Origin: Microbacterium saccharophilum
GTDB taxonomy: Bacteria > Actinomycetota > Actinomycetes > Actinomycetales > Microbacteriaceae
Reading direction: 5' to 3'
NCBI RefSeq assembly: GCF_007992455.1
Contig: NZ_BKAH01000002.1
Location: forward strand, 124,001 to 188,000
Length of the DNA stretch: 64,000 nucleotides
This document shows positions 1 through 4,191 of the stretch, in pieces (within the stretch, counting starts at the first letter, position 1; every line of letters begins with the position of its first letter). The notes under the pieces were generated by a model. The model worked only from the letters and a program-made list of their open reading frames with translations. It was not told the DNA's origin and did no database searches. Made by a program: the position numbers and the translations under genes.

Positions 1-1
1 G

Positions 2-1660
2 CAGACTCCGCCCGAACCGGGCCCGCAGCCGAAGGGGTGGTCGTGGCGTGACCGGGCCCGCGGCTCGGTCGTCAAGGGCACCGTCCTCGACCCCGGCACC
101 GAGCCGCTGGACGGGATCGAGGCGTTCCAGACCGCGTACGTGCCCGATCGGCTCCTCCTCTCCGGCGGGGAGAAGGGTGCGCTGCTGCCCGACAACCTCG
201 AGCGGGTCCGCCGTGCGGCGGGTGCGTTCGGCTGGGGCGTCGAGCGCGAGGCGCTGGACGGCAGCGAGACGGACGACGACGCGCCGCCGCCGGAGCCGCG
301 GTTTCCCGGTGCACCGGTCGTCATCCGCGTGCGCCTCACGACGCCGGACGGCGACCGGGGGGTCTCACCCGCGCTGCCGGACGCCTGGCGCGTGCTGCAG
401 CAGGTGCGGCGCGACGCCCTCGGCGGCGATCCGGTGCGGTCCCGGGACGGCCGCGTGGACGCCGCCGCGACGCTGCGGGCCGCGGGCCTCGACCGCGTCG
501 GCCTCGACCACCTGCTCACCGTCGACCCCGTCGGGCTGAACCCGTACACGAAGTCCAACCCGTACACGAAGTCCAACCCGTACACGAAGTCGAACCCGTA
601 CACGAAGTCGAACCCCTACACGAAGTCCAATCCCGTCGGCGAGTACGGCGAAGCCGGCCTCGGCGGGCGGCAGCCCGTCGCGTGGGTGGGCCCGCCGCTC
701 GTGCGCACCGAGCCGGCGAAGGGGCGCCGTCGCGCGGTGGTGGCCGTGCTCGACACGGGCGCGGGCGTCCACTCCTGGCTGCCCGACGACATCGTCGACC
801 GGGACGTGCAGATCGACGGACGCCCTCTGGGGCTCACCGACGAGGCCGACCCGGAGGTGTACCCCGACCTCTACGGTCCGCTCGACGGCGAACTCGACCC
901 CGTCGCCGGGCACGGCACGTTCATCGCCGGCATCGTGCGGCAGGCGGCACCGGATGCCGACATCCTGGCGATCCGTGTGGCCGACGCGCTGGGGATCGTG
1001 GAGGAGTCGGCGCTCCTGCGGGTGATCGAGGACCTCGGCGTGCTCGTGCACCGGTACCGCACCGGGCAGGGCGGGGGGCGACCGGTCGACGTGCTGAACC
1101 TGTCGCTCGGGTACTACCACGAGACCCCGCAGGACGGGCTGTACACCCGCGACCTGTACGACCTGCTCGCCGCGCTCCGCGCGCTCGGGACCGCGGTCGT
1201 CGTCTCGGCCGGGAACGACGCGATCGACCGGCCGACGTTCCCGGCGTCGCTGTGGCCGTGGCCCGGGTCCGACAACGGGATCCTGCCGGACGGCGGCGCC
1301 GCGCACGTCTCCGTCGGGGCGCTCAACCCGAACGGCTGGACGACGGCGCTGTTCTCCAACGTCGGCCCGTGGGTGCGCACCTACGCCGTGGGCGCCGGCG
1401 TCGTCAGCACGATCCCCGACTTCCGCGGCGGCATCCAGGCGACGGCGCGCGACGACCAGTACGGGCGCCGCCGGCTCACGATCGGCCCCGAGGACTTCCG
1501 CGGCGGGTTCGCCGTCTGGAGCGGCACCTCCTTCGCGGCGCCGCTCGTGGCGGGCCGGATCGCGGCGGCCCTCACCGATCTCCCGGCCGAACCGGAGAAG
1601 GCCGAGGACGCGGTGGCGGGCATCGCGAAGGCGGCGGAGGCGGTGATCGCCCCGGACTGA
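2..1660 (+). CDS. S8 family (subtilisin-like) serine peptidase, 5'-truncated by window edge
   Basis: The reading frame is open from base 2, and the first 46 codons read like real protein, so the gene begins upstream of the window; the internal GTG at 140 is not a convincing start. All subtilisin landmarks are present: catalytic Asp in AVLDTG (codon 752-754), catalytic His in GHGTFIAG (911-913), the oxyanion Asn in VVVSAGND, and catalytic Ser in SGTSFAAP (1529-1531). Roughly 180 residues of non-catalytic sequence precede the Asp and end in five NPYTKS repeats, so the layout is prodomain-like region, repeat linker, protease. No C-terminal membrane anchor is visible. A TPR-CHAT protease gene follows after 53 bp on the same strand. 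The family is sure; the substrate, the location in the cell and the N-terminal end cannot be seen. Confidence 0.95.
   Translation, partial: QTPPEPGPQPKGWSWRDRARGSVVKGTVLDPGTEPLDGIEAFQTAYVPDRLLLSGGEKGALLPDNLERVRRAAGAFGWGVEREALDGSETDDDAPPPEPRFPGAPVVIRVRLTTPDGDRGVSPALPDAWRVLQQVRRDALGGDPVRSRDGRVDAAATLRAAGLDRVGLDHLLTVDPVGLNPYTKSNPYTKSNPYTKSNPYTKSNPYTKSNPVGEYGEAGLGGRQPVAWVGPPLVRTEPAKGRRRAVVAVLDTGAGVHSWLPDDIVDRDVQIDGRPLGLTDEADPEVYPDLYGPLDGELDPVAGHGTFIAGIVRQAAPDADILAIRVADALGIVEESALLRVIEDLGVLVHRYRTGQGGGRPVDVLNLSLGYYHETPQDGLYTRDLYDLLAALRALGTAVVVSAGNDAIDRPTFPASLWPWPGSDNGILPDGGAAHVSVGALNPNGWTTALFSNVGPWVRTYAVGAGVVSTIPDFRGGIQATARDDQYGRRRLTIGPEDFRGGFAVWSGTSFAAPLVAGRIAAALTDLPAEPEKAEDAVAGIAKAAEAVIAPD
539..628 (+). 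repeat. Five tandem 18-bp units encoding NPYTKS
   Basis: Five exact-length 18-bp units encode the hexapeptide Asn-Pro-Tyr-Thr-Lys-Ser five times, and a partial sixth copy (Asn-Pro) follows. The protein repeat is perfect, while the DNA copies differ at a few third positions (TCC/TCG for Ser, TAC preceded by CCG/CCC for Pro). Synonymous drift with an unchanged peptide suggests selection on the peptide and not only recent slippage. The array sits between the N-terminal region and the catalytic domain of the S8 protease. Confidence 0.97.
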
Positions 1661-1713
1661 GGCCGGCGCCGGAATCGTCGCGCAGGGGGCGCGAGGCAGG
1701 GCATGCTGTCAGG

Positions 1714-4191
1714 GTGACCCCCACCGCGGACGAGCTCCACCGACGGGGCCTCCGTCTGACGAACGAGCGCCGCTACGCCGACGCGCGGCGTGTGCTCGAT
1801 CAGGCGGCGGCGGCCGCCGTCGACCCCGATCTGGCTGCGCGCATCGCCGGGACGCTCTCCTATGTCCTCGTTCAGACCGGCGACCCGCAGGCCGCGGAAC
1901 GACTGTGCCGCGACGCGGTCGCCGCGGACGGGCTGAGCGCCCACACGCGGGGTGTGCTGGCCGGGCAGCTCGGGAGTCTCCTGGCCAATCAGGGCCGGCT
2001 CGATGAGGCGCTCGTGTGGCTGGAACGGGCCATCTCCACCATCCCGGACGATCCCGTGGCGGTGGCCAACATCCGCATGAACCGCAGCGTGCTGCTCATG
2101 CAGCGCGGCGACCTCGTCGCCAGCACGGCCGACCTCGAGGAGGCCGTCGCGGCCTTCGCGGAGCACGGCGACGCGGTGGACGTCGCCGAGGCCCAGCACA
2201 ACCTCGGCTACGTCTCCCTCCTCGGCGGCGACATCGTGCGCGCGATGCGGGAGATGGCCGCGGCGCGACCCGCGATCGCCGCGGCCTCACCCGCGAACGC
2301 CGCGATCGGCGACGTCGACCGGGCGGAGGTGCTCCGCGACGCCGGCCTCGTGACCGAGGCGGAGCGGCTGCTGGCACGCGCCGCATCCGTCTTCGGCGAG
2401 AACCGGATGCCGCAGGCCCGCGGCGAGGCCGAGTTCCACCTCGCGCGCTCGCTGCTCCGGCACGACACCGCCCGGGCCGCCGCCACCGCCCGCGCGGCGG
2501 CCCGCCGGTTCAAGCGGCTCGGCAACCGGCTCTGGGCCGCGCGGGCCGAGGCGATCCTCCAGCGCGCCGCATTCGCCGGGGGAGCGCTGGACCGCGCGGG
2601 CCGGCGCTTCCCGGAGATGCGCCGCCGCCCGACGCCGGAGGACGTCCGCCGCGTCGCCCGGGTCCTCGATGCCGGCGGGCTGCGCAGCGACGCCGCCGCC
2701 CTGCGGCTCGCGCAGGAGCTGTGGCGCGCACGGCGGGACGCCCCCGCCGGGCGGCTGCCGCGACTGCCGGCATCCGCATCGGTCGAGGTCCGCCTCCTCG
2801 CGGACGAGGTCCGCGCGGCACGCGCCCTCCGCGCCGGCCGTGTCGCCGAGACCCGCCGGCACGCGGCGCGCGGCCTCGATGAGCTCGCCGCATCGCAGGC
2901 CTCCTTCGGCAGCCTCGACCTGCAGACCTCCCTCGTCATGCACGGCAGCGGGCTCATGCTCGCCGGCCTCGACGCCGCCGTGCAGTCCGGCCGTCCCGAT
3001 GTCGTCTTCGAGTGGTCCGAGCGCGCCCGGCACCTCAGCATCCAGGTGCTGCCGCTGCGCCCGCCGCCCGACCCGGAGCTCGCCGGCGACCTCGCCGAAC
3101 TGCGCGTCCTGCGCGCGGATCTCGCCGGCGCCGACTGGCTGTCCGACCCCCGCGCCGTCGAGCTCGGCGAGCGGCTCCGGCAGCGCCAGTGGACGACGAC
3201 CGGCGCGCGCGGCGTCGAGGAGCGCGTCGGCCTCGGGGCGGTGCGGGCGACGCTCGACGCCGATACCGCCGTCCTCTCCTTCGTCTTCAGCGGGAAGGAC
3301 ATGCACTGCCTCGTCGTCACCCGCGACGCGGAGGCCGTCGTCCCCCTGCCGGGATGGGACGATGCGCGCACCGCGCTGGCGGGCCTCCGCTCCGACCTCG
3401 ACGTCGCGGCGTCGGTGCGCTCCGGCCCGATGGTCGCCGTGATCCGACGTGGGCTCGACGCCCGGCTCGCCGCCCTGTCGGCAGCCCTGCTCGACGGACC
3501 GCTGCGGCGCACCGCTGCCCGGCGCCTCGTGCTGACCGCGCCGGGCGTCCTCGCCGGACTGCCGTGGGGGATGCTGCCCGCGCTGCAGGGCCGCGCGTTC
3601 ACCCTGGCCGGCTCGGTGACGCGGTGGGTGCGCGGCCGCTCCGCCGCCGCGCCGATCACGAGCGCCGGGTTCGCCGCCGGCCCGCGCGTCGCCCGCGGCG
3701 AGGAAGAGGTCGCCCGCGCGGCATCCGCGTGGCCCTCACCGCCCCTGCTGCGCGGGGGCGACGCGACGGTCGATGCGGTCTCGGCGCTCGGCGGCGAGGT
3801 GGACCTGCTGCACGTCGCCGCGCACGGCCGGCACGCCGTGGACAACCCGCTCTTCTCCGGTCTCGAGCTCGCCGACGGCGTGCTGTTCGGCTATGACATC
3901 GACCGGATGCCGCGCGTCCCGGCCACCGTCGTCCTGTCGGCCTGCGAGGTCGGCCGCTCGGCGGTGCGCTGGGGGGAGGAGGCGGTGGGGATGACGCGGT
4001 CGTGGCTGCACGCCGGCGCCCGGTGCGTCGTCGCCGCCCCGGTCGTGGTCGCCGACGACGAGGCCTGCGAACTCCTCGCGGCCATGCACGAAGGCCTCGC
4101 GGCGGGTCGTCGGCCCGCCGACGCGCTCGCCGACGCGACCGCGCGCACCGGCATCCTCGCGCCCTTCCAGGCGCACGGCGACGGCCTCTGA
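1714..4191 (+). CDS. TPR-CHAT domain protein (caspase-like cysteine protease)
   Basis: The 825-residue protein starts with helical TPR-like repeats (about residues 5-280; for example NLGYVSLLGGDIVRAMREM), continues through a helical middle region, and ends in a CHAT domain (about 560-825). The caspase-type dyad is visible: His704 in HVAAHGRH and Cys744 in VLSACEVG, followed by the usual MTRSWLHAGARCVVAAPV strand-helix. CHAT proteases are clan CD relatives of caspases and separase, often fused to TPRs that sense a partner. I chose the GTG at 1714 because the TPR homology begins there and a -10-like CATGCT lies 6 nt upstream (1702-1707); the same frame is open far upstream but only as a shadow of the S8 gene. 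It probably forms an operon with the S8 protease. Partner and trigger are unknown. Confidence 0.93.
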   Translation: MTPTADELHRRGLRLTNERRYADARRVLDQAAAAAVDPDLAARIAGTLSYVLVQTGDPQAAERLCRDAVAADGLSAHTRGVLAGQLGSLLANQGRLDEALVWLERAISTIPDDPVAVANIRMNRSVLLMQRGDLVASTADLEEAVAAFAEHGDAVDVAEAQHNLGYVSLLGGDIVRAMREMAAARPAIAAASPANAAIGDVDRAEVLRDAGLVTEAERLLARAASVFGENRMPQARGEAEFHLARSLLRHDTARAAATARAAARRFKRLGNRLWAARAEAILQRAAFAGGALDRAGRRFPEMRRRPTPEDVRRVARVLDAGGLRSDAAALRLAQELWRARRDAPAGRLPRLPASASVEVRLLADEVRAARALRAGRVAETRRHAARGLDELAASQASFGSLDLQTSLVMHGSGLMLAGLDAAVQSGRPDVVFEWSERARHLSIQVLPLRPPPDPELAGDLAELRVLRADLAGADWLSDPRAVELGERLRQRQWTTTGARGVEERVGLGAVRATLDADTAVLSFVFSGKDMHCLVVTRDAEAVVPLPGWDDARTALAGLRSDLDVAASVRSGPMVAVIRRGLDARLAALSAALLDGPLRRTAARRLVLTAPGVLAGLPWGMLPALQGRAFTLAGSVTRWVRGRSAAAPITSAGFAAGPRVARGEEEVARAASAWPSPPLLRGGDATVDAVSALGGEVDLLHVAAHGRHAVDNPLFSGLELADGVLFGYDIDRMPRVPATVVLSACEVGRSAVRWGEEAVGMTRSWLHAGARCVVAAPVVVADDEACELLAAMHEGLAAGRRPADALADATARTGILAPFQAHGDGL

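Follow-up and report, generated by a model that had tools for sequence, protein, structure and literature searches.

What is a perfect five-fold hexapeptide repeat doing inside one protease, directly upstream of the gene for another? The question is raised by the left end of a 64,000-nucleotide stretch of the Microbacterium saccharophilum genome (contig NZ_BKAH01000002.1, positions 124,001 to 188,000 of the forward strand; hereafter the window), where a gene for a subtilase of peptidase family S8 (hereafter S8), with five exact copies of NPYTKS, is followed by a gene for a cysteine protease that combines tetratricopeptide repeats (TPR) with a CHAT domain (TPR-CHAT). The original prediction read this pair as a two-protease cascade in which the Lys-Ser of each unit might be cut by CHAT, and its inventory (intact subtilase, five perfect copies, TPR-CHAT 53 bp downstream) is confirmed by the open reading frames (ORFs), Pfam and conserved residues. 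We propose instead, at a probability of roughly 0.55, that the partner's N-terminal TPR block reads the array as a specificity-bearing ligand or as a peptide precursor, within a four-gene switch that would also comprise a sigma factor of the extracytoplasmic function (ECF) type and a small protein. The observations behind this proposal are that the genes form an operon, that the array is conserved, that its peptide stays constant over scrambled codons, and that array and TPR block change together.

Position and conservation of the array

The features of the two protease genes, all on the + strand, are as follows.

1..1660 in the window, +, S8 subtilase gene (ATG at -22, stop ends at 1660; 560 aa)
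122..523, +, predicted N-terminal inhibitor-I9-like prodomain (residues ~49-182, beta-alpha-beta-beta-alpha-beta; AlphaFold2 and fold alignment)
539..628, +, tandem array of five exact NPYTKS copies at the prodomain/catalytic junction, predicted disordered
710..1597, +, S8 catalytic domain (Pfam PF00082, E 2.4e-16, residues 253-537)
752-754, 911-913 and 1529-1531, +, intact S8 triad Asp259, His312 and Ser518
1714..4191, +, TPR-CHAT cysteine protease gene (825 aa, GTG start)
1714..2388, +, N-terminal TPR block with about five TPRs (residues 1-225), co-changing with the array unit
3466..4140, +, CHAT domain (Pfam PF12770, E 3.9e-25, residues 585-809)
3823-3825 and 3943-3945, +, conserved CHAT dyad His704 and Cys744

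S8 is a peptidase of its family by fold and by its Asp/His/Ser triad, with Asp259, His312, Asn413 and Ser518 all present and kept in 151/151 aligned homologues, and its partner is a TPR-CHAT protease by its TPRs, which Pfam finds as well, and by a CHAT domain with a His/Cys dyad (His704 kept in 150/151 aligned homologues, Cys744 in 151/151). The AlphaFold2 model of S8, with a mean predicted local distance difference test score (pLDDT) of 79, comprises an N-terminal beta-alpha-beta-beta-alpha-beta domain, with block means of 90-96 for residues 51-180 except 72 for 121-130, and a subtilase domain; residues 189-237, which take in the greater part of the array and the segment that follows, fall below 50. 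When the model is aligned with VIA-align, chains containing a prodomain match it over 298-310 residues, starting at model residue 49, 50 or 56, and catalytic-only chains over 221-236. The best prodomain-containing chains are PCSK9 (Z 24) and pro-subtilisin E (Z 22.4), with first and last aligned residues at 49 and 560 on PCSK9 with its prodomain and at 56 and 560 on unprocessed pro-subtilisin E. The Pfam I9 profile was not matched in S8 and the prodomain call is one of fold, the domain having been aligned as part of the whole model; by this predicted fold, S8 is a subtilase zymogen with an I9-type prodomain. Fold alignment and disorder together thus place the array at the usual boundary between subtilase prodomain and mature enzyme.

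A back-translated NPYTK pattern matches the 2.99-Mb genome five times, always inside the array (reversed control 0), and a motif common to another protein of the genome was rejected on this ground. The fifth copy is directly followed by a further 'NP'. Among homologues, a junction array of at least two exact tandem copies is found in 77/89 non-duplicate operon S8s and in 101/101 S8s of 100 Microbacterium loci (85 new, 16 repeating S8s of the first set), compared with 0/17 other, non-operon S8 ORFs examined, so that the suspected link between linker repeat and gene pairing holds. These controls come from a set of 20 S8 ORFs from 30 loci, three of which were operon S8s, with ten loci removed by a motif filter and some further listed matches lacking a locus; in one of the 17, a 6-mer in two copies lies around residue 48, well away from the catalytic Asp. 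At L150 (G326:C2:3012496-3013236), an ordinary 327-aa subtilisin ORF, an arrayless control and possibly an extra effector, lies beside the operon's TPR-CHAT gene.

Dimensions vary within limits (77 arrays: units of 5-9 residues, period 6 in 64/77, 2-9 copies) and sequence varies widely, with 59 distinct units among 151 operons; units seen across the homologues include NPYTKS, NPFHST, NPHGMT, GYGDGV, GWGQGI, PYWDPV, HPFTQS, PFWVGH, TGGLYWGGQ and PFTSGG. The copies of one protein match one another exactly, save that some runs (L022, L034, L105, L107, L134) include a deviant copy or a few, at an edge or internally. The 12/89 S8s without exact copies comprise four with two interspersed TPYTIPH-like copies, four degenerate ones, the imperfect L106, L125, which is truncated at a contig end, and two with no array at all, L033 and L124. 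Paralogues in one genome differ in unit. Tandem S8 genes with NPFTRT and NPFGKT lie upstream of TPR-CHAT in Microbacterium sp. cf046 (L021:4690-7979 and L257), and in a distant actinobacterial family two adjoining S8 + CHAT copies carry the unrelated units HPLYDG/HPMYDG and PFTSGG (L130:4404-14709 and L131:2-7181).

What is kept alike between copies is the peptide, not the DNA. The third-position drift noticed in NPYTKS is real (Pro CCG/CCC, Ser TCC/TCG, peptide constant), and across the 77 arrays adjacent exact copies share the codon in 890/1495 comparisons at degenerate residues (59.5%), against 754 (50.4%) expected from operon codon usage. Recent homogenisation of the DNA was rejected as the sole cause of copy identity, the excess being small; since the copies are nearly scrambled in DNA, recent slippage or conversion alone cannot explain the identity of the peptides. 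Where closely related species share a unit, corresponding copies agree in codon only slightly more often (133/230) than non-corresponding ones (514/958). Purifying selection on each copy would be the simplest cause, in line with the selection on the peptide that had been suspected. The unit itself changes readily: a 72-tip tree built from the remaining operon proteins carries 51 units and calls for at least 53 changes.

All 59 distinct units, read cyclically, hold [PG][FYWHLMVI], compared with 29.6 +/- 3.2 in residue shuffles (the rule being one picked post hoc), as do 12/12 mutually distant units, where 8.3 were expected and 14/5000 shuffles reach 12. Pro followed by F, Y, W or H occurs in 48/59. 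No residue is common to all units: Lys is present in 15/59 (29/151 operons) and Lys or Arg in 25/59 (101/151 operons, mostly of the Microbacterium NPF[TS]RT group), and Lys-Ser was rejected as a general cut-site rule on the first of these counts. We regard it as very improbable, and disfavour the notion, that the array is a neutral spacer, that is, a low-complexity linker born of slippage without a sequence-specific role. Copy number and period do vary, the array is predicted to be disordered, and the excess of codon sharing between adjacent copies implies that some duplication is ongoing; yet synonymous sites are near random between copies whose residues are identical, the pair of Pro or Gly and a large hydrophobic residue is kept throughout, the other S8 ORFs examined have no such linker, and the TPR block of the partner changes with the unit, as set out below.

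Subtilases prefer substrates of the Ala-Ala-Pro-Phe type in S2-S1, and by analogy the Pro/Gly-hydrophobic pair fits this preference as well as the Pro-Tyr/Phe/His core of LIPY/F, a propeptide motif of intracellular subtilisins. The units might then serve autoinhibition only, as pseudosubstrates for the cleft of S8 itself, the copies adding avidity and CHAT being uninvolved. This reading, which we hold to be distinctly unlikely, accords with an S8 start that is not signal-peptide-like and with the Pro-aromatic pair of most units, LIPY/F being [LVI]-[IFLV]-P-[YFH] in the accessible part of the source (PMC6220982); LIPY/F sits, however, in a short N-terminal extension, compared with a prodomain of ~130 residues here.

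Co-change of the array with the TPR block

A natural pair of alleles ties the array to one part of the partner. Loci L095 (PFIATN x5) and L102 (PLIETN x5), from closely related genomes, share 100% of residues in the sigma factor, 95.3% in S8 and 89.9% in TPR-CHAT, and along the operon their nucleotide identity is 92-100% per 120-bp block, with drops to 71% at the array, to 73-78% over the first four TPR blocks, to 78% in the block at the S8/CHAT junction and to 88% in a single later TPR block. Between array and TPRs, the S8 catalytic blocks stay at 93-100%, and residue differences in TPR-CHAT number 56 in 1-210 vs 18 in 211-825. Array and N-terminal TPR block are thus the main replaced segments of this pair. 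A second type of event is an identity shift at the array: L229 and L230 (NPFSHT) match L217 and L218 (NPFTRT) at 82-96% of nucleotides up to the array and at 58-82% past it, through S8 and TPR-CHAT, with 39-49% at the S8 3' end and 80-96% in the last three blocks.

The same tie emerges from paired comparisons. After removal of operons with no exact array, with a TPR-CHAT no longer than 700 aa, with paralogous arrays (L021, L130, L131, L257) or with duplicate S8 C-termini (165 to 151), the 151 unique operons were matched, in one greedy pairing, into 67 non-overlapping closest pairs, 37 of them with the same unit. Once the CHAT catalytic domain, sigma factor and small protein are controlled for, the correlation of unit distance with identity is r -0.64 for TPR-CHAT residues 15-120 and -0.55 for 121-220 (0/2000 permutations each), compared with -0.25 for 221-330 (57/2000), -0.21 for 331-430 (97) and -0.14 for 431-540 (268), and in sliding windows co-change drops sharply past residue ~225. 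Without L095/L102, the two first values under these controls are -0.51 and -0.39. Because the CHAT catalytic domain, used as a control, pulls its own windows to zero, the test was repeated with equal treatment, each region being set against the mean of the other six TPR-CHAT regions, the sigma factor and the small protein. Residues 15-120 (r -0.55, 0/1000 permutations) and 121-220 (-0.39, 2/1000) again stand out; the other five regions lie at +0.05 to +0.21, including the two parts of the CHAT catalytic domain (+0.21, +0.18), which therefore show no co-change beyond the rest of TPR-CHAT. The S8 catalytic domain, under this strictest control, gives r -0.17 (80/1000). Same-unit pairs of like closeness keep residues 15-120 at 0.81-1.00 identity (18 pairs; L187/L180 0.97, L230/L229 1.00).

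Two other tests carry less weight. A first pair test compared 41 pairs of different unit with 13 pairs sharing a unit. Residues 15-120 reached p = 1.3e-4, but the catalytic domain and three further TPR regions also came out at p 0.002-0.02; the test was set aside because its groups differ in closeness (0.786 vs 0.851), and the 67-pair tests are relied on. All-pairs Mantel and column tests point to the TPRs and the S8 catalytic domain, and are confounded by phylogeny.

A number of results weigh against a ligand read by the TPR block. Two windows past residue 225 (271-300 and 391-420) also reach p < 0.01, and the S8 catalytic domain (-0.42) and prodomain (-0.34) co-vary with the unit when CHAT catalytic domain, sigma factor and small protein are controlled for. 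With sigma factor and small protein as the only controls, co-variation with the unit extends to all regions of both proteases (-0.35 to -0.75), peaking at 15-120 and reaching -0.62 in the S8 catalytic domain and -0.48 and -0.35 in the two parts of the CHAT catalytic domain, so that the S8/TPR-CHAT pair drifts as a whole, with the TPR block standing out above it. In all-pairs comparison at equal column numbers, the TPRs (0.72) are close to the S8 (0.68) and CHAT (0.66) catalytic domains, and at L201/L200 a Thr/Ser change of unit came without extra TPR divergence (0.92). The classical groove positions of a TPR are 2, 5, 9, 12, 13, 33 and 34, and co-varying TPR columns were not enriched there (p = 0.58; p = 0.10, Fisher p = 0.84), a lack that may fit the exchange of whole TPR blocks. 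L033 and L124 are arrayless though CHAT is present, and nine others have degenerate, interspersed or imperfect copies. The disorder of the array in AlphaFold2 shows no docking and speaks neither way for the S8 cleft, and the Pro/Gly-hydrophobic rule was chosen after the units had been seen.

How do the rivals fare? Autoinhibition draws support from the co-variation of the S8 catalytic domain (-0.42, as above), and leaves unexplained both the stronger co-change of another protein's TPR block and the joint replacement of array and TPR block across a conserved S8 catalytic domain. We think it rather unlikely that the units are cleavage sites, in which case TPR-CHAT would dock by its TPR block and cut in or beside the array, freeing the S8 catalytic domain from its prodomain, with several identical sites giving speed and robustness. 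The array does lie between prodomain and catalytic domain, the TPR block changes with the unit, Lys or Arg is present in the unit of most operons, and Csx29 cleaves a partner encoded in its own locus, according to the accessible part of PMC10028731. Against this stand the CHAT catalytic domain, whose co-change does not exceed that of the rest of TPR-CHAT, although it does co-vary when sigma factor and small protein are the only controls, and the two arrayless S8s; moreover, a fixed P1 for CHAT is not visible, because no residue is common to all units and Lys or Arg occurs in fewer than half of them. The Lys-Ser cut site originally suggested finds no backing here, and the suggested tie of the linker to the CHAT protein survives as an evolutionary one, through TPR residues 15-220, and not through the CHAT catalytic domain.

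Operons poor in array offer a suggestive parallel in few lineages: in one family (L111, L112, L114, L115, L124), TPR-CHAT aligns to the family model from position 23-49 onwards, and in eight other operons, including array-bearing ones and L094, L096 and L106, from 1-11, with L033 cut by its contig. The TPR-CHAT N-terminus of L124 aligns only from model position 49.

The four-gene set

The S8 ORF runs open across the left edge of the window. The contig, read upstream of base 1, adds two genes in the same direction, so that the order is sigma factor, small protein, S8, TPR-CHAT.

-1191..-550 (L004:12809-13450), outside the window, +, ECF sigma factor gene (213 aa; sigma70-ECF, TIGR02937, E 1e-16)
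-560..-87 (L004:13440-13913), outside the window, +, gene for a small helix + beta-sandwich protein (157 aa)

The end of the sigma-factor gene overlaps the small-protein gene by 11 bp, and 53 bp separate S8 from TPR-CHAT. The upstream conserved gene that the original prediction had thought worth seeking is in fact two, and its two-protease cascade, right about a conserved protease pair, misses a sigma factor and a small protein that are equally constant. A simple hydropathy scan found no membrane-type segment in any of the four proteins (maxima 0.83-1.55 over 19 residues), which are therefore probably all cytoplasmic; 19-residue windows starting at residues 1-22 of S8 have hydropathy of -0.61 or less, unlike a signal peptide. 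The small protein is modelled as two helices and a beta-sandwich (mean pLDDT 85). It has no Pfam match above the cut-off, no carboxypeptidase domain was recovered by Pfam, and neither its sequence nor its fold has a significant match in the Protein Data Bank (PDB) among the matches listed by VIA-align and Foldseek (best fold match E 0.04). The PADLOC models of anti-phage defence systems matched S8 only weakly (subtilase E 5.6e-5, IetS E 4.4e-4) and gave no match for the sigma factor, the small protein or the CHAT protein.

Searches with S8 or an S8 profile found homologues in 9/199 genomes of the family sample (E <= 1e-20), 46/297 of the order sample (E <= 1e-60), 8/396 of the phylum sample and 190/345 Microbacterium genomes. 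As had been expected, the S8 and CHAT genes are neighbours in relatives, a TPR-CHAT gene lying in the fetched stretch at 56/56 loci found through S8 alone. All four genes are in the fetched stretch for 86/89 non-duplicate S8s, a set in which some loci were found through CHAT and are paired by construction; by ORF midpoints, the order in these 89 is sigma-small-S8-CHAT in 62 and S8-sigma-small-CHAT in 19. No fifth gene is conserved in more than 5/27 loci, Cas7-11 not having been searched by name, and of the 22 gene clusters present in 4-5/27 loci the 12 largest look like clade-local chromosomal context.

Departures from this arrangement are few. S8 and TPR-CHAT, elsewhere adjacent, are ~4 kb apart at L089:7233-11310, and TPR-CHAT lies ~13 kb from S8 at L203/L276 (G1102:C2:398129-411260), beyond the stretch fetched for L203. 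At L044:10519-11668, the sigma-factor and small-protein genes are inverted and downstream of S8-CHAT, the set being rearranged and complete. One Microbacterium genome (L176:3973-6413) has its TPR-CHAT split over two frames, by frameshift or sequencing error. Four S8s of the Microbacterium set have no TPR-CHAT of more than 700 aa, namely L231 and L235 (contig ends), L176 (split) and L203.

A possible switch and its known relatives

The four genes could form a cytoplasmic switch made of an ECF sigma factor, a small protein, a subtilase zymogen and a TPR-CHAT protease, in which the hexapeptide array would be the ligand for TPR-CHAT residues 1-225; all copies would be alike because one site reads every copy. 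The unit would have two layers: (i) the pair of Pro/Gly and a large hydrophobic or aromatic residue, suited to the subtilase S2-S1 cleft as pseudosubstrate or processing site, and (ii) variable residues holding a private code. Recognition of the array, whether whole or as freed peptides, would couple the states of S8 and TPR-CHAT, and the protease output would most likely fall on the small protein, hence on the sigma factor, as that of Csx29 does on Csx30 and its sigma factor, which makes the small protein, by this analogy, the candidate for the role of sigma-factor partner. These steps differ in credibility: physical binding of the array by the TPR block seems likely, coupling of the two protease activities through it is an even bet, and the route by way of the small protein to the sigma factor is tentative, somewhat on the doubtful side. 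The array may act through intact docking and avidity, as a CHAT substrate or by supplying freed peptides, three modes between which sequence does not discriminate.

In its boldest form, which taken as a whole chain we find unlikely, the subtilase would be both precursor and maturase of an intracellular peptide signal. Once activated, S8 would cut its own array after each Pro/Gly-aromatic pair, freeing several copies of a peptide of 5-9 residues; the TPR block would read the peptide like a ligand of the RRNPPA quorum-sensing family, and the peptide would switch on CHAT and, by way of the small protein, the sigma factor; and each lineage would have its code, new codes arising or spreading by joint replacement of array and TPR block.

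A repeat that differs between lineages and is tied to the sensing end of its partner suggests a private intracellular recognition code. If true, this would offer a new means of keeping parallel protease pathways apart, and might also be an intracellular peptide signal. To our knowledge, little is settled on what TPR-CHAT proteases sense outside CRISPR, or on how actinobacterial ECF sigma factors that have protease neighbours and no anti-sigma factor are regulated. Sequence evolution here points to ligand (the array) and sensor (TPR residues 1-225) together, and the near-identical natural alleles L095 and L102 are a ready-made swap experiment.

Four known systems invite comparison. The first is ECF54, mainly of Actinobacteria, for which the accessible part of PMC8999054 describes carboxypeptidase, subtilase and CHAT proteins conserved in the context of an ECF sigma factor, without an anti-sigma factor, and proposes proteolytic control. 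Our locus has the same subtilase and CHAT neighbours, a likeness at the level of gene neighbourhood, and since subtilase and CHAT beside ECF54 sigma factors are already published, the gene set is not new. The ECF54 section, as far as accessible, names no array, no hypervariability and no link between array and TPRs (PMC8999054), and no mention of the array was met in the literature searched, most subscription papers and the ECF classification paper being outside its reach.

The intracellular subtilisins are likewise cytoplasmic subtilases with a Pro-aromatic motif before the catalytic domain, as far as the accessible part of PMC6220982 goes. They differ from S8 in its large I9-like prodomain, tandem copies, lineage-specific units and operon with CHAT and sigma factor; their short N-terminal propeptide with LIPY/F is not found here, and the units share with that motif only its Pro-aromatic portion.

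RRNPPA receptors are TPR proteins that read short, sometimes multicopy peptides, each receptor its cognate one. Pheromone propeptides of this family are tandemly duplicated in some cases, as the accessible part of PMC11343458 has it. Here, by contrast, the array lies within a 560-aa subtilase without a signal-peptide-like start, not in a secreted small propeptide beside a TPR receptor, the reader is fused to CHAT, and the hosts are actinobacteria. By analogy, the closest precedent for receptors that read tandem short peptides is found in those RRNPPA systems whose pheromones are duplicated.

Craspase, finally, comprises Csx29 (a TPR-CHAT protein), Csx30 and CASP-sigma, the TPR-CHAT protein acting on a sigma-binding partner (accessible parts of PMC10028731 and PMC9729208). 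There as here, a TPR-CHAT protein, an ECF-type sigma factor and a further protein are encoded together; no Csx30 chain is among the PDB matches of our small protein, and here a subtilase with a tandem array takes part as well. By analogy again, Csx29-Csx30-CASP-sigma is the nearest worked example of a TPR-CHAT protein acting on the partner of a sigma factor.

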